Shown: in pieces, positions 544 through 64,000 of the stretch
Numbering within the stretch: the first letter of the stretch is position 1
How the letters are laid out: every line of letters begins with the position of its first letter
Assembly (NCBI RefSeq): GCF_000971195.1
Contig: NZ_BBLZ01000005.1
Span: 62,001-126,000, forward strand
Source: Demequina soli
GTDB taxonomy: Bacteria; Actinomycetota; Actinomycetes; Actinomycetales; Demequinaceae
Reading direction: 5' to 3'
DNA length: 64,000 nucleotides
Translations under genes and position numbers: made by a program
The notes under the pieces: model-generated
Told to the model about the DNA's origin: nothing
The model's input: only the letters and a program-made list of their open reading frames with translations
Databases searched by the model: none

Positions 544-571
544 GGACGATGAGCCGCGCGGCGCATCGTCC
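544..571. terminator. Hairpin between convergent genes, built from the GGACGATG motif
   Basis: The nine-base arms GGGACGATG and CATCGTCCC flank a short GC-rich loop, between the stop of the Fem gene and the stop of the penicillin-binding protein gene. It is placed to act as a bidirectional terminator. The right arm is one of the 30 copies of the window-wide decamer. There is no T tract, as is common in high-GC actinobacteria. Confidence 0.5.
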
Positions 572-579
572 CGGCACGG

Positions 580-2973
580 CTACCCCGCGGCCGCGGCGTT
601 CCCGGTGGACGTCCCTGACTTCTTCCCGGTGCCCGGCGTGGCGGCCGGATCGGCCGCGGCACCCGCGGTCGCCGTGGGCTCGGGCGTGCTCGACGGCTCG
701 GGCGTGATGACCGGCTCGGGCGTCACCGACGGCTCGGGCGTGATGACCGGCTCGGGCGTCACCGACGGCTCCGGCGCCGCGGTCTGGGACGGCGTGGGCG
801 ACGGGGTCGACGACGGCGTGGGCGACGGGGTCGACGACGGCGTGGAGGTGGGCTTGGGGTTGACCGCCTCGCCGACGTTCGCGCGCGGCGGGAAGTCGAC
901 CACGTCCATGCGGTCGAGGATCGGGCCCATCATCGACACCCAGATGTCCGTCGGCACGGTGCCGCCGGTGATCTCCGAGTAGCCGCCGAACGGGGTGATC
1001 GACTGCACCGAGCCGTCCTCGCCGACCTGGTACAGCGACACCACACCGACGATCTGCGGGGTGAAGCCGCAGAACCAGGCCGACTTGTTGTCGTTCGACG
1101 TGCCGGTCTTGCCCGCGATGGGGCGGCCGAGCTCGCGTGCCTGCGTGGCGGAGCCGGCCTGCACCACCTGCTGCATCGCGTAGGTGGTGTCGGCGATGAC
1201 GTCCTTCGAGAACACCCGGGTGGAGTCCTCCTGGTGCTCGTAGGCGGTGCCGCCGTCGGGGCCGATCACCTTCTGCACCGTGTAGGTCGGCTTCCGGACG
1301 CCGCCGTCGGCGATGGTCGTGTAGGCGTGCGCCATCTGCATCGCGGTCGGCGAGGCGGTGCCGAGCACGTTCGCCGCGTTGTCGTCCAGGCCGACGGTGT
1401 CCTGCGGCAGGCCCGCGTCGATCGCCGCCTGCATGGTCTTGTCGGGGCCCACGGCCTCGTTGAGCTGCACGTAGTAGGTGTTGACCGAGTTCTGCGTCGC
1501 CTGGACCATGTCGATCCAGCCGTAGTTGATACCCGCGAAGTTGCGCACCGGGTTCTCGAAGCCGGGCAGCGTCATCGAGTCGTTGGCCTCGTACCGGGTG
1601 TCGAGCGAGAAGCCGTTGGACAGCGCGGCGATCATCGCGAACGGCTTGAACGTCGAGCCCGCCTGCGAGATGTCCTGGGTGACCGCGTTGCGCTGGACCT
1701 TGAGGTAGTCCGGCCCGCCGTACATCGCCGTCACGGCGCCCGTCTGGGCGTTCACCGTGGTCGCGGCCGCCTTGAGGTTGTCCGCGTGCCCCTCGGGCAT
1801 GTGCTGGACGGCGTTGACCACCGACCGCTGGTCGTGCTTCTTGAAGGTCGTGACGATCTTGTAGCCGCCCATCTCGATCTGCTCCTGCGTGAGGTCGAGC
1901 TTCGCGATGGCCTCGTCGAGCGCGGTGCGGATCAGGTAGCCGTTGGTGCCGCCGAACGTGTCGGAGGTGGAGAACTCGACCGGCTCGGGGAAGGCCTGCG
2001 CGTCGCGCTCGGCCTGCGTGATGAAGCCGGCCTCGACCATGCCGTCGAGCACGTAGTTCCAGCGCTGCTCCGCCTTCGCCGGGTTCACGGCGGGGTCCCA
2101 CGCGCTCGGCGCGGGCACGATCCCCCAGATCATCGCGGCCTCGGACAGCGTGAGCTCCTCGGCATGCTTGTCGAAGTACGCCTGGGCGGCGGCCTCGATG
2201 CCGTAGGCGCCGCGGCCCAGGTAGATGGTGTTCATGTAGTTGCAGAGGACCTCGTCCTTGGTCTGCTCCGAGTCCACCTTGAGCGCGAGCAGCGCCTCCT
2301 TGATCTTGCCCGGGATGTCGGTGGTGGTCTCGCCCACGTAGTAGCGCTCGACGTACTGCTGCGTGATGGTCGAGCCGCCCTGCTTGTCGCCCTGCACGAT
2401 GGTCTTGTACAGCGCGCGGGCGGTGCCCTTGAAGTCGATCCCCGGGTTCGTGTAGAAGGTGCGGTCCTCGGATGCGACGATCGCGTGCGGCACGTAGTCG
2501 GGCAGGTTCGAGCAGTCGATGATCTGGCGGTCGACCTCGCCGACCTTCGCCATCTCGGTCTTGCCGTCGGCCCAGTACACGGTCGAGGACTGCGCGAGCG
2601 CGACGTCCGCCGCCTGCGGCACCTCGAGCTTCGAGTAGACGCTCATCACCGCGATGGCGCCCGCCGCGATGGTCACGAGCAGCGCGATGAGCGCCGCGAT
2701 GCCCGTGATCCGGAGGATCCGCTTCCAGCGCGGGAGCCCGCCCTTGCCGTCCTTGCCGCGGGTGCCCTTGCCGCCGCCGCCTCCCTGGCCGCCGCCCTTC
2801 GCACCCGTGGACGATGCGGGGGTCGCCGCCACGCCGGTGCTCGCCCAGGCGCCTCCTCCCTGGTGGGAGCGGGTGCTGCGACGCACGGGCGACTGCCCCG
2901 ACCGGGGCGGCTGCGGGGACGTCGAGGAGGCGTGCATGGACACGCGCTGGGGGGCGAGGGGGCGTTCGGTCAC
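580..2973 (-). CDS. Class A penicillin-binding protein (glycosyltransferase-transpeptidase)
   Basis: Bifunctional cell-wall synthase of 797 residues that polymerises lipid II and cross-links stem peptides outside the membrane. A Gly/Ser-rich cytoplasmic N-terminus (1-80) leads to a transmembrane helix at about 86-112. The GT51 domain follows with the catalytic glutamate in 'ASEDRTFY' (E169) and 'GGSTITQQ' (199-206). The transpeptidase has STFK (S440), SVN (496-498) and KTGT (622-625), so all catalytic motifs are intact. From about residue 715 there is a Thr/Pro/Glu/Ser-rich extracellular tail encoded by tandem DNA repeats. Start GTG at 2973 was chosen for the AAGGTGG ribosome site just upstream. 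It resembles actinobacterial PonA proteins. Confidence 0.93.
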   Translation of the reverse strand: MTERPLAPQRVSMHASSTSPQPPRSGQSPVRRSTRSHQGGGAWASTGVAATPASSTGAKGGGQGGGGGKGTRGKDGKGGLPRWKRILRITGIAALIALLVTIAAGAIAVMSVYSKLEVPQAADVALAQSSTVYWADGKTEMAKVGEVDRQIIDCSNLPDYVPHAIVASEDRTFYTNPGIDFKGTARALYKTIVQGDKQGGSTITQQYVERYYVGETTTDIPGKIKEALLALKVDSEQTKDEVLCNYMNTIYLGRGAYGIEAAAQAYFDKHAEELTLSEAAMIWGIVPAPSAWDPAVNPAKAEQRWNYVLDGMVEAGFITQAERDAQAFPEPVEFSTSDTFGGTNGYLIRTALDEAIAKLDLTQEQIEMGGYKIVTTFKKHDQRSVVNAVQHMPEGHADNLKAAATTVNAQTGAVTAMYGGPDYLKVQRNAVTQDISQAGSTFKPFAMIAALSNGFSLDTRYEANDSMTLPGFENPVRNFAGINYGWIDMVQATQNSVNTYYVQLNEAVGPDKTMQAAIDAGLPQDTVGLDDNAANVLGTASPTAMQMAHAYTTIADGGVRKPTYTVQKVIGPDGGTAYEHQEDSTRVFSKDVIADTTYAMQQVVQAGSATQARELGRPIAGKTGTSNDNKSAWFCGFTPQIVGVVSLYQVGEDGSVQSITPFGGYSEITGGTVPTDIWVSMMGPILDRMDVVDFPPRANVGEAVNPKPTSTPSSTPSPTPSSTPSPTPSQTAAPEPSVTPEPVITPEPSVTPEPVITPEPSSTPEPTATAGAAADPAATPGTGKKSGTSTGNAAAAG
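695..766 (-). repeat. Two 36-base tandem repeats in the PBP C-terminal tail
   Basis: Two adjacent identical 36-base units (695-730 and 731-766) encode repeated 'EPSVTPEPVITP'-like peptide in the tail of the class A PBP. Exact DNA identity, including third codon positions, indicates recent duplication. Confidence 0.85.
791..838 (-). repeat. Two 24-base tandem repeats in the PBP C-terminal tail
   Basis: Two adjacent identical 24-base units (791-814 and 815-838) encode 'SSTPSPTP' repeats of the proline-rich tail. With the neighbouring 36-base pair they make a low-complexity region open to slippage in multiples of three. Confidence 0.85.
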
Positions 2974-3140
2974 GTGACCACCTTACGGAGTGCTCGGTTC
3001 CGGCCGCGCGGACCCGGGCCCGCGGACGGCCGTCGCCGCACGCCTGCGCGCCCGGCGCATCGTCCAACGCGCGGCGGGGGCGACTTGTCCCCCGGCGCGG
3101 CGGATTCGCGCGTCCGGACACGGTGCGCTACGGTCTCCGA

Positions 3141-3157: not shown

Positions 3158-3210
3158 ACTGGTCGTGATATCGGCCCGCGACAGCGGGCCCCGGGATGCG
3201 AGGAGGAGCG

Positions 3211-3798
3211 GTGGCCAAGACGGATGTCCTGACGCTGGCGATCCTCGGCATCCTCCGCGACCGGCCGCATCATGGCTACCAGATCCGCAAGCTTCTGGGC
3301 GTCGAGCTGGGCCCCTTCCGGGCCCTCAGCTACGGGTCGCTGTACCCGTGCCTGCGTCGCATGGTCGAGGCGGGGCTCATCGAGGCGTCGGGCGACGAGC
3401 CCGGCAACCCGACCCCCGCATCGTCCCGGCGCGCGCGCATCGCGTACAGCCTCACCGAGGCGGGGCGCGCCCGCCTGACCACGGAGCTGGCGAACGCCGG
3501 CGCGTCGTCGTGGGACGACGACGCGTTCGACGTGCGCTTCTCCCTGTTCGCACACACCGACGCCGCCACGCGGCTGCGGATCCTGGAGGGACGGCGCAGC
3601 CGTCTCGCCGAGCGGCTCGAGGAGGTGTCGGAGGGGCTCAAGCGCATGCACGAGCGTCACGATGCCTACACCGCCGAGCTCCAGCGCCACGGCCTCGAGC
3701 AGGTCGAGCGCGAGATCTCGTGGCTCGACCGCCTCATCGAGAATGAACGATCCGCCCCCGGCGGTGACCACCACGGCTCCGCCTCGGCGGACCACTAG
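3211..3798 (+). CDS. PadR-family transcriptional regulator
   Basis: A 195-residue winged-helix repressor. The PadR motif is clear near the N-terminus: '[21 protein letters not shown]', then '[19 protein letters not shown]'. The C-terminal half is Arg/Glu-rich and helical ('[15 protein letters not shown]', '[32 protein letters not shown]'), as expected for the PadR dimerisation region. The GTG at 3211 is taken as start because AGGAGGAG lies just before it; an ATG at 3196 would lack a ribosome site. The gene sits 17 bases upstream of inositol-phosphate synthase, the same pairing as in mycobacteria (padR-like Rv0047c beside ino1), so it probably controls inositol synthesis. A palindromic operator precedes it. 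Confidence 0.88.
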
Positions 3799-6271: not shown

Positions 6272-6910
6272 TCAGGCGGCGCGGCGCGACAGCAGCAGCA
6301 CCAGGCCGAGGACGGCCATCGCGACGCCGCCCCCGCCGCGGATGGTCGCGAGCCGGCCGGGCGACCGCGCGAACCAGTCCCGCGCCGCGCCCCCCGCGAG
6401 CGCGTACACGGAGTCCGACGCGATGCCGATCAGCGCGAACGTCACGCCGAGCGCCACGATCTGCGCGCCCACCGCGCCGCGGCCCGGATCGACGAACTGC
6501 GGCAGCACGGCCGCGATGAACACCAGCGTCTTGGGGTTCGACACGCCCACGACGAGCGACTCGCCCAGGAGGCGCCGCGCGGGCGGGACCGGCGCATCGT
6601 CCCCCGTCACGGCGAGGCGGGCGCCGCGATGGCGGAACGCCTGCACGCCGAGCCACACGAGGTAGAGGCCGCCCGCGACCTTGAGCACCACGAACGCGGC
6701 CTCGGACGCGGCGATCAGCGCGCCCACGCCGAGCGCGACGACCACGGCATGCAGCACCGGCCCGCCGGCCTGGCCGACGGCGGAGACCACGGCGGGACGC
6801 GTGCCGTGCTGGAGCGCGCGGCCGATGACGTAGAGGACGCCCGGGCCGGGGATGACGATGATGACGAGGGCGACCGCGGCGAACGCGAGCAGGGTGTCGG
6901 GCGCGATCAC
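6272..6910 (-). CDS. LysE-family amino-acid exporter
   Basis: A 212-residue membrane protein with about six helices. The LysE/RhtB hallmark 'VIIVIPGPGVLYVIGRAL' is near the N-terminus, and 'VVGVSNPKTLVFIAAVLPQFVDP' contains the conserved NPK. These carriers export amino acids or homoserine-like compounds; which one is unclear. The GTG start overlaps the stop of the upstream DUF805 gene by four bases (GTGA), so the two are translationally coupled. The downstream DUF805 gene is 74 bases away, so the three genes may form one transcript. Confidence 0.85.
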   Translation of the reverse strand: MIAPDTLLAFAAVALVIIVIPGPGVLYVIGRALQHGTRPAVVSAVGQAGGPVLHAVVVALGVGALIAASEAAFVVLKVAGGLYLVWLGVQAFRHRGARLAVTGDDAPVPPARRLLGESLVVGVSNPKTLVFIAAVLPQFVDPGRGAVGAQIVALGVTFALIGIASDSVYALAGGAARDWFARSPGRLATIRGGGGVAMAVLGLVLLLSRRAA

Positions 6911-7359
6911 GGGGCGGCGCGCACCGCGTGGACGATGCGCGGGTCCGGCCCGAACCGGTTGGCGCCCTCGTTGCCGCGCAGCAGGGCGAGCACGTGCAGC
7001 ACGATGCTCAGGCCGACCGGGGCGAGCAGCAGCCACCAGGCGCTCATGCCGAGGTCGTGCAGGCGGCGGGCCGTGACCGCGAGGACCGGCACGCCGACCG
7101 CGACCACGAAGGCCAGCACGATCCCCCACGCGAGGGTGAGGGGCGCGAGGTGCACGGAGCCCGGGTCGATCGCCGGGTCGTCCGCCGGGCTCGCTCCGTC
7201 GGGGAAGGCCGAGAACCACAGCGCGATCGCGCCGGCCGCCGCGACGATCCACACGAGGGACGCGAACAGCTGGAACCACCAGTACTCGGCGCGCGCGGCG
7301 CGCCCGCGGAAGGTCGCGAAGCCGCGGTAGCAGGTGCGGATCGCCTCACCGAAGCCCAT
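6907..7359 (-). CDS. DUF805 membrane protein
   Basis: A 150-residue second DUF805 protein: 'ATFRGRAARAEYWWFQLF', several helices, 'ARRLHDLGMSAWWLL' and the terminal 'GNEGANRFGPDPR'. The ATG at 7359 has GGGGAGG upstream, which decides against an earlier in-frame ATG at 7377. It ends in a GTGA overlap with the LysE gene, so the pair is probably made together. The biochemical role of DUF805 is unknown. Confidence 0.85.
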   Translation of the reverse strand: MGFGEAIRTCYRGFATFRGRAARAEYWWFQLFASLVWIVAAAGAIALWFSAFPDGASPADDPAIDPGSVHLAPLTLAWGIVLAFVVAVGVPVLAVTARRLHDLGMSAWWLLLAPVGLSIVLHVLALLRGNEGANRFGPDPRIVHAVRAAP

Positions 7360-7420: not shown

Positions 7421-8713
7421 GTGACCCTGGCCCGCGACCTCTCCCGGCTGTGGAGGGCGCGAGGCTTCCGCCGTCTCACGCATGCGCGCCTGCTGTCCCA
7501 GGGCGGCGACGGCATGTTCCAGGTCGGCATCGCCACGGCCTTCTTCTTCGACCCGACCCAGGCCGCGACCCCGGGAGCGATCGCGGTCGGCTTCGCCGTG
7601 CTGCTCCTGCCGTTCACGGTGGTCGGGCCGTTCGTCGGGCCGCTGATCGACCGCTGGTCGCGTCAGCGCATCCTGCTGGTGGGCAACCTCGTGCGCGTGG
7701 GGCTCGCCGCCGCGATCCTCGCCATCCTGCTCGCGGACGGTCCCGTGTGGACGCTCTACGCCCTCGCGCTGGTCACGCTGTCGGTCAACCGCTTCCTGCT
7801 GTCCGCCATGTCCGCGGGCCTCGCGAACGTGGTGCCGGATGAGGAGCTGCTGGCCGCCAACGCCATCATGCCGACGCTCGGCACCATCGCCGCGAGCGTC
7901 GGCGCGGCGATCGGCGGCGTCGTGACGTTCGTGTTCCCGTCCGCGTCGGAGTCGTCGCTCGCGTTCGCGGCGCTCACGTGCGCGGGAGCGTTCTTCGCGC
8001 TGTCGTCGTGGGCCGCGACGCTGCTCGGCGCCCACGAGCTCGGCCCCGAGGCGCCGCTCGCGTCGCTCGCCGTGGGCGCGCAGGTCCGCGCCCTGGGCCG
8101 CGAGCTCGCGTCGGGCGTGACCTACCTGCGGCGCCGCGTCACCCCGTTCCACGCGCTGGCCGTCATGGCGGCGCAGCGGCTGCTCTACGGGATCATGTTC
8201 ATCGCGTCGATCCTCATGTCGCGGCGGCTGCTCGGCGACCCCGCGCACCCCGAGCAGTCGCTCGGCGCGTTCACCGTGGTGCTGGGCTTCGCGGCCGCCG
8301 GCTTCGGGCTCGCGGCCGTCCTCACCCCGTGGCTCGGTCCCCGCGTGGGCCGCCACCGGTGGATCGTCGGCGCGCTGGTGCTGGGCGCGGCCGGCCAGCT
8401 GCTGCTCGCCGCCTCGTCGGCGCGGTGGGCGCTGCTCGCCGCGGCCGTGATCATCAGCCTCGCGGTCCAGGGCGGCAAGATCGCCGTCGACACGATCGTC
8501 CAGCACGACACCGCCGACGCCTACCGCGGGCGCGCCTTCACCCTCTACGACATGGCCTACAACGTCGCGTTCCTCGCCAGCGCCGCCGTCGCCGCGGCCG
8601 TGCTGCCGCCGTCGGGCTACTCCGCCGGCGTGATGGCAGGCGTCGCGGTCGCCTACCTCGCCGTCGCGCTCGTCTACGCGCGGGCGCCGCGCGTGCCCTC
8701 CCCGATCGCGTGA
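7421..8713 (+). CDS. MFS transporter
   Basis: A 430-residue major-facilitator protein with about 12 hydrophobic segments. After an N-terminal 'LWRARGFRRLTHARLLSQGGDGMFQVG' come the loop 'GPLIDRWSRQRILLVGNLVR', the motif-A-like DRWSRQR, and a C-terminal half beginning around 'LGPRVGRHRWIVGALVLG'. This resembles the actinobacterial MFS group of the macrolide-efflux type, but the substrate is not readable from the sequence. The GTG at 7421 follows a short GC-rich leader without a strong ribosome site. It is convergent with the Lrp-type gene and separated from it by the decamer hairpin. Confidence 0.82.
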   Translation: MTLARDLSRLWRARGFRRLTHARLLSQGGDGMFQVGIATAFFFDPTQAATPGAIAVGFAVLLLPFTVVGPFVGPLIDRWSRQRILLVGNLVRVGLAAAILAILLADGPVWTLYALALVTLSVNRFLLSAMSAGLANVVPDEELLAANAIMPTLGTIAASVGAAIGGVVTFVFPSASESSLAFAALTCAGAFFALSSWAATLLGAHELGPEAPLASLAVGAQVRALGRELASGVTYLRRRVTPFHALAVMAAQRLLYGIMFIASILMSRRLLGDPAHPEQSLGAFTVVLGFAAAGFGLAAVLTPWLGPRVGRHRWIVGALVLGAAGQLLLAASSARWALLAAAVIISLAVQGGKIAVDTIVQHDTADAYRGRAFTLYDMAYNVAFLASAAVAAAVLPPSGYSAGVMAGVAVAYLAVALVYARAPRVPSPIA

Positions 8714-8716
8714 GCC

Positions 8717-8751
8717 GGGACGATGCGCCCGGCCGGGTCGCGCATCGTCCC
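8717..8751. terminator. Hairpin of paired decamers between convergent genes
   Basis: GGGACGATGCG (8717-8727) and CGCATCGTCCC (8741-8751) form a perfect 11-base stem around a 13-base loop, followed by TCCTTTGT. It lies four bases after the MFS stop and ends the convergent Lrp gene too. Both arms are full copies of the dispersed decamer. Confidence 0.75.
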
Positions 8752-8779
8752 TCCTTTGTCGGGCCCTCCCGCCCGGGCC

Positions 8780-13784: not shown

Positions 13785-13822
13785 ACGGCGGGACGATGCG
13801 CGGGTCCAGGTGGGGAGCCACG

Positions 13823-17508: not shown

Positions 17509-18972
17509 GTGAAATCGGGCACGGTCCTGGGTGCGCGGTTCACCCTGCTCGACGAGGTCGACCACGACATCCCGGGCATCGCGAGGCATCTCGCCGACGA
17601 CCTCCGGCTCGGCCGGCGCACCGTCGTCGACGTCGTCGAGAGCGAGGCCTCCGGTGCCGTCCGCAAGGAGGCCACGCGCGCCTCGCGGCTGCGCGACCCC
17701 CGCCTGTCCCGCATCGTCGCGACGGGCCACGAGACCGTCGACGGCGTGCCGCTCACCTACGTCGCCATCGAGCACGTGCCCGGCGTGGCGCTCGACGCCA
17801 TCCTCGACCGCCACCGCATCGACGCCCGCCGCGCCGTCGCGATCGTGGGCGGTGCGGCCCGCGCACTCGCGGTCGCGCAGGCCGCGGGCCTGTCCCACGG
17901 CTTCGTGCGGCCCGCGTGCATCACCGTGACGTCCCGCGGGCGGGTCGTGGTCGGGGGCCTGGGCGTCGACGGCGAGGCCGCCGAGCGCGCCGGCCTCGTG
18001 CCGCATCGTTCCGAGCGTGGCGACGCCCACGCGCTCGCCGCCATCCTCGTGCGCGCCCTCACCGGCATCGACCCGGCCGAGGCGACGGCCGACGACCTCC
18101 CCGACGACCTCCCCGCTCCCGCGCGAGCCCTGGCCGTGGGGACGATGCGCGGCGCGGGTCCCGCGACGCTCGCCGAGCTCGTCGACGCGCTGTCCTCCGC
18201 GGACTCGCGCGCCCTGATCGGGCTGCCCGCGGCCGTGGACGGCCTGGCGCTCACGCCCGCGCTGGAGCGCGAGGCCGCCGACCGCGCCGCCCGGGAGGCG
18301 GCCGAGGAGGAGCGGCGCGCGGAGGCCGCACGCGCCGCCGCGCGGGCGCTCGTGGCCGCGGAGACCCTCGCCGCGGCGCAGCGGTCCGCGGAGGCGGCGC
18401 TCGCCGAGGAGATCGCCGAGCCGGACCTGTCCGCCTCCATCCACGACGCGGGCGCCGAGCTGGTCGCCGAGCAGGAGGCGGCCGAGCAGGCTCGGCGCGA
18501 GGCGGCCACGCGCGCCGCCGAGCAGGAGGCCGCCACCGAGGCCATCGAGGTGGCCGCGCTCGACGACATCCTCGGGCCCTCGGCGCCGCCCGCGTCCGTC
18601 CATCACGCGGTCGACCGCCACGAGGCGGCCTTCGACACGCTCGAGATCATGGTCGCCGAGCAGAACGTGGTGCGCGAGCAGGGCACGTGGGAGCTGGTGC
18701 TCGAGGCCCTTCACCGCCGCTGGCCGCGCTCCGAGGGCATCGCCCGGAGCCTGCGCCGCGCGCGGGAGCGCGCCAACCGGGGCGGACCCCTCAACGGGTC
18801 GCGCGTCGTCCTGTTCCTCGCGATCGTGGGCGTGGTCCTCGCGGTGATGGTCGCGCTCGCATGGCTCGCGGCCCCGCTGGGCTCGGGATTCGTCATCGAG
18901 CCCGAGCCGTCGATCGAGCCGAGCCCGTCGATCACCACGAGCATCCAGGCGCCCCCGGACCCCGGTTCCTGA
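17509..18972 (+). CDS. Stand-alone kinase-like (pseudokinase) membrane protein
   Basis: A 487-residue protein with an N-terminal kinase-like fold: '[17 protein letters not shown]', '[38 protein letters not shown]', '[16 protein letters not shown]', then '[27 protein letters not shown]'. The HRD and DFG catalytic motifs are not recognisable, so it is likely inactive. Residues about 245-350 are Ala/Glu/Arg-rich and probably coiled coil. One helix at about 440-460 is followed by a Pro/Ser-rich outer tail. A GGAGGTG site supports GTG 17509. It lies 31 bases after murJ and corresponds to the pseudokinase half of mycobacterial MviN, which is regulated through PknB and FhaA. Here it is split off and has its own membrane anchor. 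Confidence 0.78.
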
Positions 18973-20395: not shown

Positions 20396-20420
20396 GACGC
20401 GCACCGCATCGTCCGCCGCC

Positions 20421-21799: not shown

Positions 21800-22744
21800 A
21801 TGCACGCACTCATCCTCGCCGGCGGCCTATCGCACGAGCGGGACGTGTCCATCCGTTCCGGACGCCGCGTCCAGGACGCGCTCCGGGGCACCGTCGAGAA
21901 GGTTTCTTTGCTCGACGTTGACACGGAGTTGATCCCTACCTTGCGTGCGGGCGACGTGGACGTCGTCTGGCCCCTGCTTCATGGCGCCACCGGCGAGGAC
22001 GGCTCGCTGCAGGCGCTCCTCGAGCTCGTCGGGGTGCCGTTCGTCGGCACGGGCTCACGCGAGGCGCGCGTCGCCTGGAACAAGGCGATCGCGAAGGCCG
22101 TGATGGCCCGGGCCGGCATCGACACCCCCGACCATGTCACGCTGCCGCAGTCGCTGTTCCGCGAGGTCGGTGCCGAGCAGGTGCTCGACGCCGTCGTCCA
22201 CCGCTTCGGGCTGCCCGTGGTGGTCAAGCCGGCGCGCGGAGGCTCGGCGCTCGGCGTGTCCATCGTGCGCAACCGCGAGGACCTCGCCCGTGCGATGGTC
22301 CACTGCTTCGCCTACGGCGACGTCGCGCTCGTCGAGCGCTTCGTCGAGGGCACCGAGCTCGCCATGAGCGTCCTGGGCACGGGGGACGATGCGTGGGTGC
22401 TGCCCGCGGTCGAGACCGTCTCGGACGGGGCGTACGACTACGACGCGCGCTACAACCCGGGACGGGTCGAGTACTTCGCCCCCGCGCGCCTCTCGTCCGG
22501 TCAGGCCGAGCTCGCGTCCGAGACGGCGCTGCGCCTCCATCGCGTCATGGGCCTGCGCGACCTGTCGCGCATCGACCTGATCCTCGCGCCCGACGGCACC
22601 GCTCAGGTGCTCGACATCAACATCACCCCTGGTATGACCGAGACCTCGTTGTTCCCACAGGCCGCGGAGGCGGCGGGTCTCGACCTCGGCAAGGTGTACG
22701 CGGACCTCGTCGTCGGTGCCGCGCAGCGCGGCGTCACAGCCTGA
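21800..22744 (+). CDS. D-alanine--D-alanine ligase family protein
   Basis: An ATP-grasp enzyme of 314 residues expected to make the D-Ala-D-Ala dipeptide of peptidoglycan precursors. 'ALILAGGLSHERDVSIRSGRRV', 'PLLHGATGEDGSLQALLELVGVPFVGTGSREARVAWNKAIAKAVMARAGI', 'LPVVVKPARGGSALGVSIV' and 'VLDINITPGMTETSLFPQAAEAAGL' are all Ddl motifs. It is of the shorter, DdlB-like length. GAAGGGA precedes the ATG at 21800. The genome may carry another ddl in a cell-wall cluster, so whether this is the main enzyme is unknown. Confidence 0.87.
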   Translation: MHALILAGGLSHERDVSIRSGRRVQDALRGTVEKVSLLDVDTELIPTLRAGDVDVVWPLLHGATGEDGSLQALLELVGVPFVGTGSREARVAWNKAIAKAVMARAGIDTPDHVTLPQSLFREVGAEQVLDAVVHRFGLPVVVKPARGGSALGVSIVRNREDLARAMVHCFAYGDVALVERFVEGTELAMSVLGTGDDAWVLPAVETVSDGAYDYDARYNPGRVEYFAPARLSSGQAELASETALRLHRVMGLRDLSRIDLILAPDGTAQVLDINITPGMTETSLFPQAAEAAGLDLGKVYADLVVGAAQRGVTA

Positions 22745-34080: not shown

Positions 34081-38719
<4,639 letters not shown>

Positions 38720-44538: not shown

Positions 44539-46050
44539 ATGCCCACCGCCGCCCGCACCGCCACCGGTGTGCCCGAGGCCACCCGCGCATCGTCCTGGCG
44601 CGCCGCGCTCACGCCGCGCGTGCTGCGCATCGAGCTCGTCTCGGGCCTCATGGTCGCGCTCGCGCTCATCCCCGAGGCGATCTCGTTCTCGATCATCGCG
44701 GGCGTCGACCCGCGCGTGGGCCTGTTCGCCTCCTTCACGATGGCCGTCACCATCGCCTTCACGGGCGGCCGCCCCGCGATGATCTCCGCCGCGACGGCGG
44801 CGGTCGCGCTCGTGGTCGGCCCGCTCGCGAGGGAGCACGGCCTCGACTACCTGGTGGTCGCGGTGATGCTCGGCGGCGTGATCCAGGTGATCCTCGCGCT
44901 GCTCGGCGTCGCGAAGCTGATGCGCTTCATCCCCCGCTCCGTGATGGTCGGCTTCGTCAACGCGCTCGCGATCCTCATCGCGATGGCGCAGCTGCCCCAC
45001 CTCACGGGCAAGCCGTGGGCGGTCTTCGCCCTCGCGGCCGCGGGGCTCGTGGTGATCGCGCTGTGGCCGCGGCTGACCACGGCGGTGCCCGCGCCGCTCG
45101 TCGCGATCGTCCTGGTCACCGCGGTCGTCGCCGTCGCGGGCATCGACGTGCCCACCGTCGGCGACGAGGGCGCGCTGCCCGACGGCCTGCCCGGCCTGTT
45201 CGTCCCGGACGTGCCGCTGACGCTCGAGACGCTGCGCATCGTGCTGCCGTACGCGCTCGGCATGGCGCTCGTGGGCCTGCTCGAGTCGCTCATGACGGCG
45301 AAGCTCGTGGACGACATCACCGACACCCACTCGGACAAGACGCGCGAGGCGTGGGGCCAGGGCGTGGCGAACATCGTCACGGGCCTGTTCGGCGGCATGG
45401 GCGGCTGCGCGATGATCGGCCAGACGACCATCAACGTCCGCGCGGGCGGGGCCCGCACGCGCGTGTCCACCCTCGCGGCCGGCGTCTTCCTGCTGATCCT
45501 CATCGTCGCGCTCGGCGATGTGGTCGCCGCGATCCCCATGGCAGCCCTCGTCGCGGTCATGCTCTTCGTCGCGTGGGCGACGTTCGACTGGCACTCGATC
45601 CGTCCGTCCACGCTGCGCCGCATGCCGCGCTCCGAGACCGCGGTCATGCTCGTCACGGTCGCCGTCGTGGTGCCCACGGGCAACCTCGCCTACGGGGTGG
45701 TCGCGGGCGTCCTGCTCGCGTCGGTGCTGTTCGCGCGCCGCGTCGCCCACCTCGCGGAGGTCTCCGGCGGCGAGGTCGCCGACGGCGCGCGCCGCTACAC
45801 CGTCGCCGGCGAGCTGTTCTTCGCGAGCTCCAACGACCTCTACAGCCAGTTCGACTACGCGGGCGACCCCGCGCGCGTCGTCATCGACATGACGGACTCG
45901 CACGTGTGGGACGCCTCGACCGTCGCGGCGCTCGACGCGGTCGAGACCAAGTACGCGAGCCTGGGCAAGACGGTCGAGATCGTCGGCCTCAACGACGCGT
46001 CGCGCGCCATGCACGGCCGCATGAGCGGCCACCTCGGCGCCGGGCACTAG
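44539..46050 (+). CDS. SulP-family anion transporter with STAS domain
   Basis: A 503-residue transporter with about 12 helices, beginning 'LVSGLMVALALIPEAISFSIIAGVDPRVGLFASFTMAVTIAFTGGRPAMISAATAAVALVVGPL', which is the typical SulP start. A cytoplasmic STAS domain follows from about residue 420 ('YTVAGELFFASSNDLYSQFDYAGDPARVVIDMTDSHVWDASTVAALDAVETKY'). The group transports sulfate, bicarbonate or other anions; the ion cannot be read here. Start ATG 44539 with CGGAG upstream. It stands alone. Confidence 0.9.
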   Translation: MPTAARTATGVPEATRASSWRAALTPRVLRIELVSGLMVALALIPEAISFSIIAGVDPRVGLFASFTMAVTIAFTGGRPAMISAATAAVALVVGPLAREHGLDYLVVAVMLGGVIQVILALLGVAKLMRFIPRSVMVGFVNALAILIAMAQLPHLTGKPWAVFALAAAGLVVIALWPRLTTAVPAPLVAIVLVTAVVAVAGIDVPTVGDEGALPDGLPGLFVPDVPLTLETLRIVLPYALGMALVGLLESLMTAKLVDDITDTHSDKTREAWGQGVANIVTGLFGGMGGCAMIGQTTINVRAGGARTRVSTLAAGVFLLILIVALGDVVAAIPMAALVAVMLFVAWATFDWHSIRPSTLRRMPRSETAVMLVTVAVVVPTGNLAYGVVAGVLLASVLFARRVAHLAEVSGGEVADGARRYTVAGELFFASSNDLYSQFDYAGDPARVVIDMTDSHVWDASTVAALDAVETKYASLGKTVEIVGLNDASRAMHGRMSGHLGAGH

Positions 46051-46190: not shown

Positions 46191-47054
46191 ATGAACGCGG
46201 ACGACCGCACCACCCAGTCGCCCCGCGGCCTGTACGCGCCGCGTGCCGCCGAGCCGACGACCGGTCAGGTCCCCGCACGGCGCGCGTTCATGCCCGTCGG
46301 CGACTCCCCCGCGCCGCAGGCGCCCACGAGCGGATCCATCCCGACCCGCACGCCCGTGAGCGGCCAGGCGCCCGCCGCATCGTCCGCCCCGACCACGGGC
46401 ACGGCCCCGCAGCGCACGGCGCTGCGCCCCCAGACCAACCCGGGCGGCATCCCGACCACCCAGGCCGCGCCCGCGCAGCCGCAGACCGCCCCCACGCAGA
46501 CGGTCCCGCAGGGCTTCGCCCCCACCGGCGCCCCCGCGACCCCGGCGGCGTTCAGCCCGCCCGCGGAGGAGGAGGCGGCACGCACCGAGTCCGCGCTCGG
46601 CGCCGGCACCGCGAGGATCAAGGGCCTGGCCGGTCGCGCCGCCGAGAGCTTCAAGGCGGGCGACGACCTCGCGACCCCGTCGAGCAAGGGCGGCCCCCGC
46701 AAGGCCCGCGTGCTGCTGTCGCGCATCGACCCGTGGTCCGTGCTCAAGCTGTCGTTCCTGCTGTCGATCGCGCTCGGCATCATGATGGTCGTCGCCGTCT
46801 TCGTGCTGTGGAACGTGCTCAACGGCATGGGCATCTTCGCGCTCGTCAACGAGTGGGTCGTCAAGCTGTTCACCACCGACCAGGAGGTGAACATCATGCA
46901 GTTCTTCGACCGGAACAAGATCATGAGCGCCACCATCCTGCTGTCGGTGGTCAACGTGGTCCTGCTGACGGCCCTCGCGACCATCGGCGCGTTCCTCTAC
47001 AACGTGGTGTCGTCGGTCGTCGGCGGCGTCTACGTGACCCTCACGGACGACTGA
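46191..47054 (+). CDS. DUF3566 transmembrane protein
   Basis: A 287-residue protein. The first about 180 residues are low-complexity, rich in Pro, Ala and Thr ('TTGTAPQRTALRPQTNPGGIPTTQAAPAQ'). The DUF3566 domain follows ('KARVLLSRIDPWSVLKLSFLLSIALGIMMVVAVFVLWNVLNGMG' ... 'ATIGAFLYNVVSSVVGGVYVTLTDD') with two helices. In actinobacteria this family nearly always lies between gyrA and tRNA-Ile/Ala, as here, though a 7 kb block of other genes has been inserted after gyrA. Its function is unknown. AGGGAGCC precedes the start; a TTG three bases earlier is possible. Confidence 0.88.
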   Translation: MNADDRTTQSPRGLYAPRAAEPTTGQVPARRAFMPVGDSPAPQAPTSGSIPTRTPVSGQAPAASSAPTTGTAPQRTALRPQTNPGGIPTTQAAPAQPQTAPTQTVPQGFAPTGAPATPAAFSPPAEEEAARTESALGAGTARIKGLAGRAAESFKAGDDLATPSSKGGPRKARVLLSRIDPWSVLKLSFLLSIALGIMMVVAVFVLWNVLNGMGIFALVNEWVVKLFTTDQEVNIMQFFDRNKIMSATILLSVVNVVLLTALATIGAFLYNVVSSVVGGVYVTLTDD

Positions 47055-47401: not shown

Positions 47402-47490
47402 CGTGGTTCCCGCGGGACGATGCGCGGGTCGGGTCGGCGGGTGGGGTTCTGAGGGTGCGCCTCCCGTCAGTGCCCCACCCGCCCCGCCGC

Positions 47491-49163: not shown

Positions 49164-49175
49164 GGTTCCTTCGGG

Positions 49176-49242
49176 GGACGATGCGGGGGCCCGGCCGGGC
49201 GGCCGGGGCGAGGGCCGTGCGGGGGGACGACGCGCATCGTCC
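49176..49242. terminator. Long inverted pair of decamers in the potD-potB gap
   Basis: GGGGGACGATGCG (49173-49185) and CGCATCGTCCCCC (49233-49245) are perfect complements separated by 47 GC-rich bases. Lying inside an operon, it may be an attenuator or processing hairpin setting the PotD to permease ratio, rather than a full terminator. Confidence 0.5.
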
Positions 49243-49257
49243 CCCCGCACGCGGGCG

Positions 49258-51586: not shown

Positions 51587-52357
51587 ATGGCCCGCATGGC
51601 GATGAGATGGGGTCCCGGGGCGTCCGCGGCGCGGTCCGCGACGCATGCGGCGATCTTCGCGCCCCTCGCGCCCGCCGGACGTGCCGAGGCGGTCACGCAG
51701 CGCCTCGCCGACGCGATCCAGCTGGGCCTGCTCGAGCAGGGCGAGCGCCTGCCCACCGAGCAGGAGCTCGGGCGGCAGTTCGGCGTCGCGACCGTGACGG
51801 CGCGCGAGGCGCTCGAGTCGCTGCGCGTCGCGGGCCTCATCGAGACGCGTCGCGGGCGCGCGGGCGGCAGCTTCGTATGCGGCAGCGGGGACGATGCGCG
51901 CGTCGCCCTCGTCGGCCGCCTCGCCGCCACCTCGCGCGTCGAGCTGCGCGACACGGGCCTGCTCTACGGGCTCGTCGCCGCGGGCGCGGCCGAGCGAGCC
52001 GCCCTCTTCGCGACCCCGGACGAGGTCGGCGCGCTCGCGCTGCTCGTCGAGGGCGGCGCGACGGCGAGCGGCGCGGCGGCGCGCCGCGCCGAGAACGGCA
52101 TCCGCCTCGAGGTCGCCGCGCTGTCGCGCTCCGCGCGGCTCGTGAGCGAGCAGGTGCGCCTGCAGTCCGAGTTCGGCCCCCTCCTGTGGCTCGCGCTGCG
52201 CGACGGCGCGGTGGTGCGCGGCAACGCGGAGCGCCACCGCCGGCTCGTCGCCGCGATCGGCGAGGAGAGCCCCGAGGGTGCCCGGGGCATCGTCCTGGAG
52301 CAGGTCGGCTGGCTCGTCGACCGCCTGCTGGCCGTGCGCGAGGAGGCGGTCGCATGA
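51587..52357 (+). CDS. GntR-family regulator of the pot operon (probable)
   Basis: A 256-residue FadR-type regulator. The winged helix is 'AEAVTQRLADAIQLGLLEQGERLPTEQELGRQFGVATVTAREALESLRVAGLIETRRGRAGGSFV', followed by a helical FCD-like effector domain (about 95-250). It is divergent from potA and overlaps the next gene by four bases (ATGA). Three nearby in-frame ATGs (51587, 51596, 51602) are possible starts, and none has a strong ribosome site. Control of the importer by a polyamine-like effector is an inference. Confidence 0.78.
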   Translation: MARMAMRWGPGASAARSATHAAIFAPLAPAGRAEAVTQRLADAIQLGLLEQGERLPTEQELGRQFGVATVTAREALESLRVAGLIETRRGRAGGSFVCGSGDDARVALVGRLAATSRVELRDTGLLYGLVAAGAAERAALFATPDEVGALALLVEGGATASGAAARRAENGIRLEVAALSRSARLVSEQVRLQSEFGPLLWLALRDGAVVRGNAERHRRLVAAIGEESPEGARGIVLEQVGWLVDRLLAVREEAVA

Positions 52358-56265: not shown

Positions 56266-56383
56266 GCCGCACTCCTCCTGGTCCGTGGGGACTTGGCACC
56301 CTACCGGGGACGATGCGCCCTCGAAGGAGACCCTTCGGTCCATCGTGCCACTTGCGGCGCGTGGTTGCGAGGGCCATGGAACA

Positions 56384-57899: not shown

Positions 57900-58113
57900 C
57901 GCATCGTCCACACGCCTGTGGTTCACAGGGCTTCTCCGCCGTTGTCCACAACGGGGGGCTGTGGACAACCGGGCCCCGAATCCCCGGAATCCCCACCCGT
58001 ATCCACAGATGTGAATGACATCTGTGTAGTTATCCCCACGGTTCTTCACAGAAGGGGATAACTACACCCGTGTCGTTTCTCCACCGATGTGGACGAGATT
58101 GGGGATAACTACA
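57900..58113. other. Second DnaA-box cluster with a perfect hairpin
   Basis: In the 416-base gap between the rhomboid and crgA ends. Boxes: TCGTCCACA (57904), TTGTCCACA (57942-57950, perfect), TGTGGACAA (57960-57968, perfect, opposite), TATCCACAG (58000), TTATCCCCA (58030), TGTGGACGA (58088). GTGTAGTTATCCCC (58024-58037) pairs perfectly with GGGGATAACTACAC (58054-58067), and a third GGGGATAACTACA is at 58101-58113. CAGATGT/ACATCTG (58006-58024) is a smaller dyad. This AT-richer block contains no open frame that looks real. Confidence 0.75.
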
Positions 58114-60207: not shown

Positions 60208-61080
60208 TCACCAGCTTGCGATGACGAGGATCGTCACCGCGAAGCCCACGGGCTGGTTGAGCCACAGGAACGTGTGCCAGCCGCGGTTGGCCTCCTCGCA
60301 CGTCTCGTCGGTGACGCCACGGAAGCGGGCGACCGACGCGACGTAGGCGAGCGGCAGCAGGGCGGCGAGCGTCGCCGGCCACGGCAGGGCGAGCAGCACC
60401 AGGGACGATGCGCCGTACAGGGCGAGCGACAGCCACACCGTCGCGCGCGCCCCGATCACCGTGGCGACCGACGCGATGCCGCCCTCGCGGTCCGCGCGCA
60501 CGTCCTGGACCGCGCCGAACGCGTGGCTCGCCATGCCCCACAGGATGAACGCGACCCACACCGGCCACGCGCCGCGGTCCAGCAGCGACGCGCCGCCGAG
60601 GACCAGCGCGTAGAGCAGCGGTCCGCAGAAGTGCAGCGCGGACGTGAGGGAGTCGAGGAAGGGCCGCTCCTTGAAGCGCAGCCCCGGCGCCGAGTACGCG
60701 ACCACCCCGAACAGCACGAGCCCGAGCGTGATCCCCGCCGCCGCCGTGCCCTGGAGCAGCAGCCATGCGAACGGCGGCAGCACGGTGATCGCGCACGCCC
60801 ACAGGATCGTGCGGTGCACGCGCCGGGCGTGCGCGCGGTCGCGCACCACGTCACCCTCGATGCCGCCCTTGCGGGGGTTCGCGAGGTCGGACTCGTAGTC
60901 GAACACGTCGTTGATGCCGTACATCAGCAGGTTGTACGGGATCAGGAAGAACAGCGTGCCGACCACCAGCACCGCGTCGACCTCGTGCGTCACCAGCAGG
61001 TACGCCGCCGCGAACGGGAAGGCGGTGTTGATCCACGAGACGGGCCGCGACGCCCGCACCACCGAGGCGAGCAGGCTCAT
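60208..61080 (-). CDS. crtEb: Lycopene elongase (UbiA-family prenyltransferase)
   Basis: A 290-residue UbiA-type enzyme that adds C5 units to lycopene on the way to C50 carotenoids such as decaprenoxanthin or sarcinaxanthin. The two Asp-rich motifs are 'NDVFDYESD' and 'DVRADREGG', with about eight helices. It is last in the crt operon and overlaps the cyclase gene upstream by four bases (ATGA). The context crtB-crtI-crtYe-crtYf supports a C50 product. Confidence 0.9.
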   Translation of the reverse strand: MSLLASVVRASRPVSWINTAFPFAAAYLLVTHEVDAVLVVGTLFFLIPYNLLMYGINDVFDYESDLANPRKGGIEGDVVRDRAHARRVHRTILWACAITVLPPFAWLLLQGTAAAGITLGLVLFGVVAYSAPGLRFKERPFLDSLTSALHFCGPLLYALVLGGASLLDRGAWPVWVAFILWGMASHAFGAVQDVRADREGGIASVATVIGARATVWLSLALYGASSLVLLALPWPATLAALLPLAYVASVARFRGVTDETCEEANRGWHTFLWLNQPVGFAVTILVIASW

Positions 61081-61373
61081 GGGTCCTCGCCGTCGCGCGC
61101 GAGCCGCGTCCACAGCGCGGGCACGAGCATCACGGCACCCAGCGTGTACGAGAAGTCCTCGAGCGGCGCGGATCCCACGCGGATCCCCGAGACGAGCGAC
61201 TCGTCGTACGCGACGATCCCGAGCCCCACGATGACGTTGTCGAACACCGCGGTGAGCGCCACCAGTGTGAGGCCGGTGAGCAGCAGGGGACGATGCGGCA
61301 GGCGCCTCAGCGTCGGCACGGTCACCGCCGCGATGAGCGCGAGCACGGCGACGGACAGCAGCACGTAGGTCAT
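61077..61373 (-). CDS. crtYf: C50 carotenoid cyclase subunit (CrtYf/CrtYd type)
   Basis: A 98-residue membrane protein with three helices ('TYVLLSVAVLALIAAVTVPTL', 'LLLTGLTLVALTAVFDNVIVGLGIVAYD', 'PLEDFSYTLGAVMLVPALW'). The P-(L/I)-E-(D/E) motif marks the lycopene cyclase domain. It acts as a heterodimer with the next protein. The choice between f- and d-type names depends on the product and is not certain. Four-base overlaps on both sides. Confidence 0.85.
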   Translation of the reverse strand: MTYVLLSVAVLALIAAVTVPTLRRLPHRPLLLTGLTLVALTAVFDNVIVGLGIVAYDESLVSGIRVGSAPLEDFSYTLGAVMLVPALWTRLARDGEDP

Positions 61374-61696: not shown

Positions 61697-63309
61697 GCGC
61701 CGGCCCGCCGGGCCAGGTCGCCCAGGATCCCGCGGTCGCGCGAGCGGTCGAGGAAGCCGCGCGGCGCGGGCGTGGGGAGCGGGCCCACGTCGACCGCGCC
61801 GAGCAGGCGCTTCGCGACGAGCTCAGCGGAGATGAGGCACAGCGGCACGCCGATCCCGGGCACGGTGGAGGCGCCGGCGTACAGCAGGTTGGGGATCCGC
61901 GAGGAGACGTTCGCGGGCCGGAACAGCGCGGACTGCGCGAGGGTGTGCTCGAGCCCGAGCGCGCCGCCCTCCCACGCGCTCATCTGCTCGGCGAAGTCCG
62001 CCGGCGTCGTGAGGCGCAGGACGGTGGAGCGCTCGGCGAGGTCGGGCACGCCCGCCCACGCGCCCACCTGCGCGAGGTACCGCCGCGCGAGGGGCAGCAG
62101 CTCCGCGCGTGAGCCCGGCGTCGCGCCGAGCGTCGGGTCCGAGGGGAACGGCACAAGCACGAACAGCGAGTCCTTGCCCGCGGGCGACACCGACGGGTCG
62201 GTCGCGCCCACGCGCGACACGTACAACGACGACGGCACCGGAGGGAGCCGACGGTCGACGAGCGCCGCGAAGTTCGCGTCCCAGTCCCGCGTGAACAGGA
62301 GGGTGTGGTGCGCGAGCTCGGGCACCTTCCCGTCCACCTCGGCGAAGATCAGCAGCGCGCTGACGCCGGGCGAGCGACGCCGCCATGCCCTCGCCGGATG
62401 CGCGCGCCGCCCCTCCGGAACCAGGTCGGTCTCGATGTGGTGGAGGTCCGCGGCGCCCACCACCGCATCGGCCCGCACCACCTCCCCGTCCTCGAGCTCG
62501 ACGCCGGTGGCGAGCCCCGCATCGTCCACCAGGACCCGGGCGACGGGCGCGGAGGTGCGCAGCTCGGCGCCCTCCTCGCGCGCGGCGCGCGCGATCGCCT
62601 CGATGACGGCGTACATGCCGCCGCGCGGATAGCGGACGCCGTCGGTGAGGTCGAGATGGCTCATGAGGGAGAACAGGCCCGGCGCGCGGTCGGGTGACGA
62701 GCCGAGGAACACCGCGTGGAAGCCCAGGATCTGACGAAGGCGCGGGTCGCGCACGCGGGAGCCGATGCGCGCGCCCAGCGAGCGCGCGAGCAGGCCGGTG
62801 AGCAGCGGCAGGCGGCGCAGCACGTCGGCGTTGATGGTCGCCTGGGGGCGCGCGTAGGTCGTGTAGAGGAAGCGGTCGAGCGCGAAGCGGTACAGCGTGC
62901 CGGCCTCCTCGGCGTAGGCGCGCATGGCCTCCCCCTCGCCGGGGCTGAGCGCGTCGAAGCGCCGCCAGTTCTCCTCGGCGTCCGCGCTGACGTCGAGCGC
63001 GTCCGCGGGCCCCCAGGGGTCGTCGCCCTCGAAGAGCACCCGGTAGCGAGGGTCCAGGTCGACGAGGTCCAGCTCGGCCTCCACGTCGCGGCCCATGAGC
63101 GCGAACCACTGCGTGAACGCCTCGCGCATGAGGTACCAGGACGGACCCGAGTCGAAGGTGTGGCCCGCGACCTCGACGCGGCCCATGCGGCCGCCGAGCG
63201 AGCCGTGCCGCTCGAGCAGCACCACCTCGGCGCCGCCGCGCGCGAGCAGCCCGGCCGTCGCGAGCCCCGCGACGCCGCCGCCGACGACGACGATGCGCGG
63301 CCCGGTCAT
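61693..63309 (-). CDS. crtI: Phytoene desaturase
   Basis: A 538-residue FAD-dependent desaturase converting phytoene to lycopene. 'RIVVVGGGVAGLATAGLLARGGAEVVLLERHGSLGGRMGRVEVAGHTFDSGPSWYLM' is the FAD-binding start, with 'YPRGGMYAVIEAIARAAREEGAELRTSAPV', and 'NLLYAGASTVPGIGVPLCLISAELVAKRLLG' is the C-terminal CrtI signature. The length is slightly above the usual 490-520. ATGA overlaps connect it to crtB upstream and crtYe downstream. Confidence 0.95.
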   Translation of the reverse strand: MTGPRIVVVGGGVAGLATAGLLARGGAEVVLLERHGSLGGRMGRVEVAGHTFDSGPSWYLMREAFTQWFALMGRDVEAELDLVDLDPRYRVLFEGDDPWGPADALDVSADAEENWRRFDALSPGEGEAMRAYAEEAGTLYRFALDRFLYTTYARPQATINADVLRRLPLLTGLLARSLGARIGSRVRDPRLRQILGFHAVFLGSSPDRAPGLFSLMSHLDLTDGVRYPRGGMYAVIEAIARAAREEGAELRTSAPVARVLVDDAGLATGVELEDGEVVRADAVVGAADLHHIETDLVPEGRRAHPARAWRRRSPGVSALLIFAEVDGKVPELAHHTLLFTRDWDANFAALVDRRLPPVPSSLYVSRVGATDPSVSPAGKDSLFVLVPFPSDPTLGATPGSRAELLPLARRYLAQVGAWAGVPDLAERSTVLRLTTPADFAEQMSAWEGGALGLEHTLAQSALFRPANVSSRIPNLLYAGASTVPGIGVPLCLISAELVAKRLLGAVDVGPLPTPAPRGFLDRSRDRGILGDLARRAGA

Positions 63310-64000
63310 GACGGCGCCCCCGGCCGGGCGCCCGCGAGATTGCGCGCCGCGAGCACGGCCTTGACGCGGTTGGGCACCCGCACGCGTCGCGAGACGAGCT
63401 CGCGCGCCGGCGTCCGCGCGATCTGGTCGAGCAGCCGCGTGTAGATGTCGATCGTGGTGCCGACCGCGGCGCGCGCGCGGCGCGGCAGCTCGGGAAGGGT
63501 CCGCTCGGCCGCGGCGAGGTCCGCCCGGCAGTCCGCGACCAGGGAGGCGAGCCGCGCATCGTCCAGCGTGGCGGCGGTGACGCCGGGGAAGTAGGAGCGG
63601 CCGAGCGTCGCGTCGTCGGCCTGGAGATCCCGCAGGAAGTTGACCTTCTGATAGGCCGCGCCGAGCCGGCGTGCGCCGGCGCGCAGGTCGGGGTCGAGCG
63701 GGCGCGGGCCCGAGCGGGTGTTCACGAACACCGCGAGGCACATCTCCCCCACCACCTCGGCCGAGCCGAGGATGTACAGCGCGAGCGACTCCTCCGTGTG
63801 AGCGGTCCGCGTGAGGTCCATACGCATCGAGGCGAAGAACGGCTCGGTCTGCTCGCGCGTGATGCCGACCGCGCGGGACGTCAGCGCGAACGCGTGCGCC
63901 ACCAGGTCCGTGGAGAAGCCGCGGTCCATGGCGGCGTGGACCTCGTCCGCGAAGCCGTCGAGCAGGTCGCCGGCGTCGGGCCCGCGGTACGTGTCCACGA
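63306..64000 (-). CDS. crtB: Phytoene synthase, 3' part
   Basis: The frame runs off the right edge: the first about 60-70 residues, including the first Asp-rich motif, lie outside the window. The visible 231 residues contain 'SLALYILGSAEVVGEMCLAVFV' and the second motif region 'GAAYQKVNFLRDLQADDATLGRSYFPG', typical of head-to-head squalene/phytoene synthases. It joins two geranylgeranyl diphosphates to phytoene. It overlaps crtI by four bases. A crtE gene upstream is expected but not visible. Confidence 0.93.
   Translation of the reverse strand, partial: VDTYRGPDAGDLLDGFADEVHAAMDRGFSTDLVAHAFALTSRAVGITREQTEPFFASMRMDLTRTAHTEESLALYILGSAEVVGEMCLAVFVNTRSGPRPLDPDLRAGARRLGAAYQKVNFLRDLQADDATLGRSYFPGVTAATLDDARLASLVADCRADLAAAERTLPELPRRARAAVGTTIDIYTRLLDQIARTPARELVSRRVRVPNRVKAVLAARNLAGARPGAPS

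Follow-up and report, generated by a model that had tools for sequence, protein, structure and literature searches.

Introduction

According to the available text of a recent paper, only two families, the Neisseriaceae and the Pasteurellaceae, both Gram-negative, are known to use uptake words (PMC12616744, 2025). In the Neisseriaceae, these DNA-uptake sequences (DUS) are exact 10-mers found on both strands, with 2,245–4,549 copies in the genomes named; the accessible portion of the same report further describes dialects that have an invariant inner core and agree with the core-genome tree, a permissive placement between genes, and terminators at which the word stands in inverted pairs (PMC3630211). 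The inner core of the uptake signal sequence (USS) of the Pasteurellaceae is given as GCGG in the text available (PMC12616744). Within the Actinomycetota, Micrococcus luteus has comEA and comEC (PMC6370729) and requires Tad/Flp genes for transformation (PMC4322843); the accessible parts of these two papers mention no uptake word. Here we describe a ten-base word, GGACGATGCG, in a 64-kb stretch of the Demequina soli genome (contig NZ_BBLZ01000005.1, positions 62,001 to 126,000). This whole stretch is called the window, and positions refer to it unless a contig is named. Judging from sequence, we take GGACGATGCG to be a DNA-uptake sequence of this Demequina species, with a probability of roughly 0.84.

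Like the neisserial DUS, as far as the accessible text describes them, the Demequina word occurs genome-wide on both strands, prefers intergenic regions, forms inverted pairs and comes in dialects that keep a core along the species tree. It differs in its core, CGAYGC instead of CTG, in which one base can be T or C, in a GG box three bases after this core, in its Gram-positive hosts, and in a dialect that is independent of the operon type of the type IV pilus (T4P). With CGATGC or CGACGC in place of CTG, the Demequina word is hence not a neisserial DUS by descent. With the Pasteurellaceae USS it shares a short core that is used genome-wide for self-recognition, a function that we infer here for Demequina; however, GGACGATGCG does not contain GCGG, and the USS hosts are Gram-negative. 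Like M. luteus, the window's genome has Tad-like clusters, besides its T4P.

Abundance and distribution of the word

The window contains 30 exact copies of GGACGATGCG, 16 on the plus and 14 on the minus strand, spanning positions 562 to 63564, and by count no other 10-mer ranks higher. These numbers exactly reproduce those of a sequence-only reading that had preceded this work. Its estimate of an about 100-fold excess was higher than ours: 100 dinucleotide-preserving shuffles of the window gave a mean of 0.90 and a maximum of 4 copies, and by this model the excess is about 33-fold, with no shuffle coming close. Similarly, the eight-base core GACGATGC is abundant as had been noted, with 50 occurrences against the about 47 given, and our own gene calls divide the copies into 15 intergenic and 15 within genes instead of 14 and 16.

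In the whole genome (3,002,692 bases, 16 contigs) we counted 1,475 copies, corresponding to about 490 per Mb, whereas a control with the letters of GGACGATGCG reversed was found three times. The copies are balanced between the strands (754 forward and 721 reverse), and also on 360 kb of a single contig they split into 95 and 86. Chi and the FtsK-orienting polar sequences (KOPS) are likewise short over-represented words, but they are strand-biased along the replichores, from which GGACGATGCG with its parity differs.

A sample of 584 kb, composed of the window and another 520 kb of the same genome, was used for finer statistics; genes in the sample and the window were called with a simple home-made gene finder. 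The sample has 294 copies of GGACGATGCG, while a fourth-order Markov model predicts 15.3. Of these, 210 lie in genes, 81 are intergenic and 3 are on borders. As 10.7% of the sample is non-coding, the density is 3.2-fold higher intergenically than in genes, in line with the intergenic enrichment proposed before. Coding copies are distributed unevenly over the reading frames, with 107 in the commonest same-strand frame, 62 in the commonest opposite-strand frame and 41 in the three others.

Such uneven frame use might suggest that base composition or codon usage produces the excess, and indeed shuffling alone yields about 21 of the 210 coding copies. Shuffling of synonymous codons, however, gave 20.9 coding copies on average (standard deviation 3.9, maximum 33 in 100 shuffles), which leaves a tenfold excess, and for the 81 intergenic copies, with 0.6–1.4 expected, the excess is 57- to 129-fold. 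Moreover, within the genus the count can drop to 10 copies per genome. Base composition and codon usage cannot account for the excess, and with the codon-shuffle control refuting it we consider this explanation to have practically no chance. The sequence-only reading had named a count near the Markov or codon expectation as the result that would speak against it; on the 584 kb, the excess survived both comparisons. Markov models of maximal order were dropped as a statistic because the word's own sub-words soak up the excess, so that the 10-mer is not singled out; in their place we used models of lower order and the codon shuffling.

The longest word-free interval of the sample (G000 C14:276610-293997) measures 17.4 kb and has a G+C content of 0.69. 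It contains genes that, named by eye, resemble a peptide/sugar transporter and glycosidase cluster and were perhaps acquired.

Anatomy of the word

Inside CGATGC, i.e., positions 4–9 of the word, sequences with a single-base change occur in the 584-kb sample at numbers near or below expectation (the highest relative to expectation is 5 versus 3.2). In contrast, some changes at positions 1–3 and 10 are enriched two- to four-fold. The CGATGC core is strict, and the edges of the word are soft. A degenerate second box, GG[TC]C, begins three bases behind the core, at a distance of 12 bases from the word's first base. It accompanies 21% of the 81 intergenic copies and 28–29% of those in the two commonest gene frames, at a background of 2%. 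The GG alone, at +12/+13 with the first base counted as 0, is present at 42% of sites in G000, 48% in G063, 38% in G015, 48% in G010 and 61% in G009, five genomes that cover three dialects, with a background of 8–10%; in G003 it is found in 24%. Degenerate boxes also flank the core of the USS.

Beyond the word we found no conserved sequence: the flanks of 241 copies, and of 280 copies in four groups, show weak and degenerate preferences that in part reflect codon rhythm. Since flanks are not shared between copies, the word is not part of a longer or mobile repeat. This lack of conserved surroundings sets GGACGATGCG apart from repetitive extragenic palindromic (REP) sequences and miniature inverted-repeat transposable elements (MITE). 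One could still suspect that the word lies at the heart of a small repeat, mobile or REP-like, as some copies are paired as inverted repeats. Most copies, however, are single and inside genes, and with flank preferences this weak and degenerate and no conserved flank seen, we regard such an origin as highly improbable.

Nine pairs of GGACGATGCG lie within 60 bases of each other in 544 kb, and all nine are inverted and none direct. Both inverted pairs of the window are predicted to fold into hairpins. The first, from the pair at 8718/8741, spans 8710..8760 with a fold of −27.8 kcal/mol (z −3.07); it is terminator-like and sits between the convergent genes 7421–8713 (+) and 8780–9310 (−). The second, from the pair at 49176/49233, spans 49170..49250 with a fold of −57.9 kcal/mol (z −3.74).

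Hundreds of sites per Mb at near-random spacing, together with hairpin pairs between genes, could also mark the binding site of an abundant chromosomal protein, for example, one for nucleoid organization, segregation or repair, or a global regulator. Its specificity would have to shift between species groups, and word variants do follow clades as described below. On the other hand, tolerance for some single-base changes in the core would be anticipated of a regulator or nucleoid protein, yet such variants are not enriched; most copies are within genes and in several frames, and the 754/721 strand distribution lacks the polarity of Chi- or KOPS-like signals. No such chromosomal protein is known to us to raise an exact 10-mer to 500 copies per Mb, and we consider this explanation unlikely.

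Word dialects and the species tree

The 10-mer GGACGATGCG itself is not equally frequent throughout the genus: 12 of 37 Demequina genomes have 711–1,564 copies, and the other 25 have 10–235. K-mer analysis of stretches from genomes poor in GGACGATGCG revealed variants of the word in many of them, while some samples of 20–25 kb showed nothing clear. Whole-genome counts were obtained for GGCCGATGC in 44 genomes and for GGMCGATGC in 34 of those, the latter within a 396-genome sample of the order. Fourteen of the 34 Demequina genomes have 1,261–1,864 copies of GGACGATGC (dialect A), and a further 14 combine 659–2,018 copies of GGCCGATGC with fewer than 300 of GGACGATGC (dialect C); the remaining six contain little of either. 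The base following GGCCGATGC varies among dialect-C genomes and can be G, T or C. In G009, one of these six, we counted 1,201 copies of G[GC]CCGACGCT, evenly divided between the strands (599/602), with 24 for the reversed control. Within 120 kb of this genome, GCCCGACGCT occurs 31 times versus 0.9 expected, and variants of its core occur 0–2 times each. G[GC]CCGACGCT also reaches 308 copies in G012, 255 in G003 and 141 in G032. Among named species (D. maris, G030; D. flava, G010; D. rhizosphaerae, G022), D. maris has the form GGACGATGCG and D. flava the form GGCCGATGCT. The PilC of the window's species is 87% identical to that of D. maris.

All dialects, which differ by one or two letters between species groups, have in common the strict core CGAYGC, either as CGATGC or as CGACGC, and usually GG three bases after it. 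A shared core and second box under varying outer bases would be the trace expected from a family of related receptors. The same variation bears on a DNA methyltransferase, which might recognize the word as part of a restriction system or use it as an epigenetic self mark for uptake. The word is long, non-palindromic and followed by a degenerate second box, and it differs between species groups at hundreds to thousands of sites. To our knowledge, methyltransferase sites are not driven to such excess, and we find this explanation very unlikely. In sum, every rival explanation open to testing fails at least one test.

A species tree was calculated from AroC, MltG and Efp, products of housekeeping genes that flank the T4P operon, for 39 of the 44 genomes; like all trees in this work it was built with FastTree and midpoint-rooted, without a support test. 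For dialect counts, genomes of the class 'other' were pruned, which kept 30 of 39 leaves in the species tree and 31 of 41 in the pilus tree; the gene trees discussed below retained 24 of 30 leaves in the case of the orphan pilin, and 22 of 30 for both ComEA and ComEC. The A/C labels of G028 (count of the 10-mer) and of G018, G020, G029 and G060 (count of GGCCGATGC) rest on a single count each, and the other 28 on the counts of both GGCCGATGC and GGMCGATGC. On the species tree, one change between A and C suffices for the 30 labelled species, whereas 1,000 shuffles required at least five. With the midpoint root, GGCCGATGC extends over the deeper branches and GGACGATGC forms one nested group, which also contains G001, G012 and G026 with few copies each.

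G001 adjoins A-dialect species on the species tree, and G063 is the neighbour of G027 in the trees of the pilus and the orphan pilin. We found no abundant word in 180 kb of G001 and in 105 kb of G027, though competence genes are present, and the word was perhaps lost. G001 retains 123 copies of GGACGATGCG, as if decaying.

Individual sites are also maintained, twice as often as control words. In aligned DNA of ten related species pairs, the pair's own word was unchanged in 54 of 96 comparisons, while control k-mers matched in G+C and taken from these alignments predict 24.9; every pair was counted in both directions, with a single direction in the whole set lacking any site, and the 96 comparisons are hence not independent.

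Uptake machinery and the search for a receptor

Competence genes of the com type, for which the sequence-only reading had suggested a search, are found throughout the genus. ComEC was matched in all 44 genomes, in some of them in pieces, and PilC in 43 of 44, and in each of the 30 comEC loci inspected ComEA adjoins ComEC. The window's genome has a T4P operon at C13:130245-142106 that contains pilB, a second ATPase, pilC, a pilin, minor pilins, a prepilin peptidase, pilM and two further genes. A further T2SSE-type ATPase, PilT-like by reading of its protein sequence, is located on C15, and T2SSE matches together with a reading of the proteins point to two Tad-like clusters on C9 and C16. Because M. 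luteus transformation needs Tad/Flp genes, according to the part of that report available, either the T4P or a Tad pilus may serve as uptake pilus here.

A tree of PilC, PilB and PilM from 41 of the 44 genomes separates two deep types of the T4P operon. By parsimony, 11 changes of type are needed on the species tree, and 15.5% of shuffles were equal or better. Type T1 comprises 8 genomes of dialect A, 9 of dialect C and 4 others; type T0 comprises 7, 7 and 6, respectively. With both types in both dialects and 11 changes of type, we rejected the T4P operon pilins as the sole determinant of the dialect. Since both operon types occur with both dialects, the dialect is not determined by the operon's pilins, unless one and the same word can be read by different pilins. 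In the T4P loci L078-L117, pilin sets differ between species, and some prepilin frames are about 600 residues long.

By their N-methylation family, four pilin-type genes were detected in the window's genome, one of which is solitary (C9:219586-219999). Of this orphan pilin, 30 orthologues were inspected, and in 26 of these 30 loci a methionine-synthase-like text motif is adjacent. Two cysteines are invariant in the 30 orthologues and the C-terminal part is conserved. Its tree has two A/C changes in 24 leaves. The DUS receptor of the Neisseriaceae, in comparison, is the minor pilin ComP, which is electropositive and coevolves with the dialect, whereas the orphan pilin is acidic and not universal. 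It also has a full-length relationship with one of the operon pilin types, which counts against a receptor role. We therefore name the orphan pilin as a candidate receptor, albeit a rather unlikely one. The trees of ComEA and ComEC show two and one A/C changes, respectively, in 22 leaves each; these fit the species tree and do not discriminate.

In eight of 12 orphan pilins from GGCCGATGC-dialect genomes, and in none of 12 from GGACGATGC-dialect genomes, a motif T[LI]PELL occurs in which a proline precedes a conserved glutamate (loci L236, L241-L243 and L256-L259).

Proposed role in transformation

The anatomy of the word matches that of uptake sequences in all features open to sequence testing. 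The uptake function put forward in the sequence-only reading thus gains support from abundance, strand parity, intergenic preference, codon control, dialects, site conservation and competence genes, and also from the hairpin pairs, where the inverted arrangement that it had pointed out was seen in nine of nine close pairs. We propose that a receptor on the cell surface, probably sitting on a pilus of the type IV or Tad kind or being ComEA itself, would recognize the word in free double-stranded DNA. Next, the pilus would draw the bound DNA inward, ComEA and ComEC would hand one strand into the cell, and recombination would insert this incoming strand into the chromosome. If word-bearing DNA is taken up more often, recombination could spread and maintain the word by molecular drive, and each word variant might bias exchange towards its own kind.

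Several observations weigh against an uptake sequence. The GG[TC]C box is rare or absent in the three minor gene frames (3%, 0 and 0). The number of close pairs is at chance level (9 versus 8.2), and their one-sidedness is limited to orientation. Five of the 34 genomes have weak variants or none, yet competence genes are present. No receptor was found among the T4P operon pilins and the orphan pilin, the operon types being mixed without a change of dialect. The orphan pilin has isoelectric points of 4.05–5.87 in the 30 orthologues; its best hit is an operon pilin in the word-rich genomes G011, G019, G061, G036, G062, G018 and G031, and in G014 only a fragment of it was found. Finally, no uptake or transformation data for Demequina emerged among the literature matches listed.

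No actinobacterial uptake word was reported in the titles and abstract beginnings of the literature matches listed, in a search that had most subscription papers and all bioRxiv preprints outside its scope, and among the listed papers containing the letters of the word none concerns bacterial uptake by its title. As far as this literature shows, the Demequina words would be the first DNA-uptake sequences in Gram-positives. We lean, with some reserve, towards a wider reading, in which they represent a third bacterial system where transformation relies on sequence-coded self-recognition, one that evolved independently and is the first of a Gram-positive. It would comprise at least three Demequina dialects and, in two genomes from another family of the order, related words built on the same CGATGC core, and its dialect would be set by a receptor encoded outside the often exchanged T4P operon and act as a species mating barrier. 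A third, Gram-positive case would bear on the question whether uptake words arise from any sequence bias of a receptor, by molecular drive, or by selection as a species barrier. Dialects track the species whereas the types of the pilus operon are shuffled among them, an unusually clean natural experiment that allows a search for the receptor by elimination. If an uptake role is correct, these actinobacteria may become transformable once donor DNA is supplied with the right word.

Related words outside Demequina

Across the 396 genomes of the order, GGMCGATGC has 915–2,220 copies in 28 of the 34 Demequina genomes. The 362 non-Demequina genomes have a single outlier, G349 of family f11, with 1,929 copies. 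Nine stretches of this genome (180 kb; L198-L200 and L224-L229) contain 47 copies; the rest thus seem to be concentrated in other parts of it, perhaps within a repetitive gene. The next-highest counts are up to 828 in f15 genomes of 8–9 Mb, up to 626 in f20 and up to 579 in f11.

Two genomes of family f20 each have a long word with the core CGATGC. GGACGATGCCG occurs 12 times in 80 kb of G095 (L270-L272 and L289) versus 0.087 expected, and CCGATGCCGTC occurs nine times in 80 kb of G148 (L276-L278 and L292) versus 0.166 expected. With f20, a second family of actinobacteria may have words of the uptake type. The word system may therefore predate Demequina. Two small f20 contigs of 14 and 6 kb, too short to tell, contained no such word, and neither did 60 kb of G192, which belongs to another genus of Demequina's family.

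T4P loci were also scanned for words, namely 76 of 80 named loci, those of at least 10 kb. In the non-Demequina loci (Cellulomonas, Sanguibacter, Actinotalea and others), no word of the CGAYGC type was outstanding, at 20 kb each a weak test; the strongest was CCCGACGC in L151 with 13 copies versus 5.3 expected. The Cellulomonas T4P loci L135, L141, L148 and L151 are rich in a palindrome, ATCGCGAT, with 14 copies versus 0.57 expected in L135.

Word copies and other repeats in the window and its genome

The two inverted pairs of the window, all four arms being intergenic, consist of GGACGATGCG at 8718..8727 (+, left arm) and 8741..8750 (−, right arm), and at 49176..49185 (+, left arm) and 49233..49242 (−, right arm). 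The other intergenic copies are located at 562..571 (−), 3056..3065 (−), 13791..13800 (+), 20405..20414 (−), 24977..24986 (−), 29759..29768 (+), 33138..33147 (+), 39698..39707 (−), 47415..47424 (+), 56308..56317 (+) and 57900..57909 (−). Within genes, the word is found at 2809..2818 (+), 3417..3426 (−), 6593..6602 (−), 6930..6939 (+), 18140..18149 (+), 22384..22393 (+), 34749..34758 (+), 35970..35979 (+), 44586..44595 (−), 46376..46385 (−), 51889..51898 (+), 60403..60412 (+), 61288..61297 (+), 62518..62527 (−) and 63555..63564 (−).

Two further repeated sequences were seen. In the G000 sample (L002-L021 and L058-L061), CCAATGACAGATGT is surrounded by a longer repeat that has about a dozen copies in 480 kb at an expectation near nil; this repeat looks dispersed and A+T-richer. 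In the window, the 12-mer GTTTCACGTGAA was counted six times on both strands together, and it resembles parS, the site of ParB.

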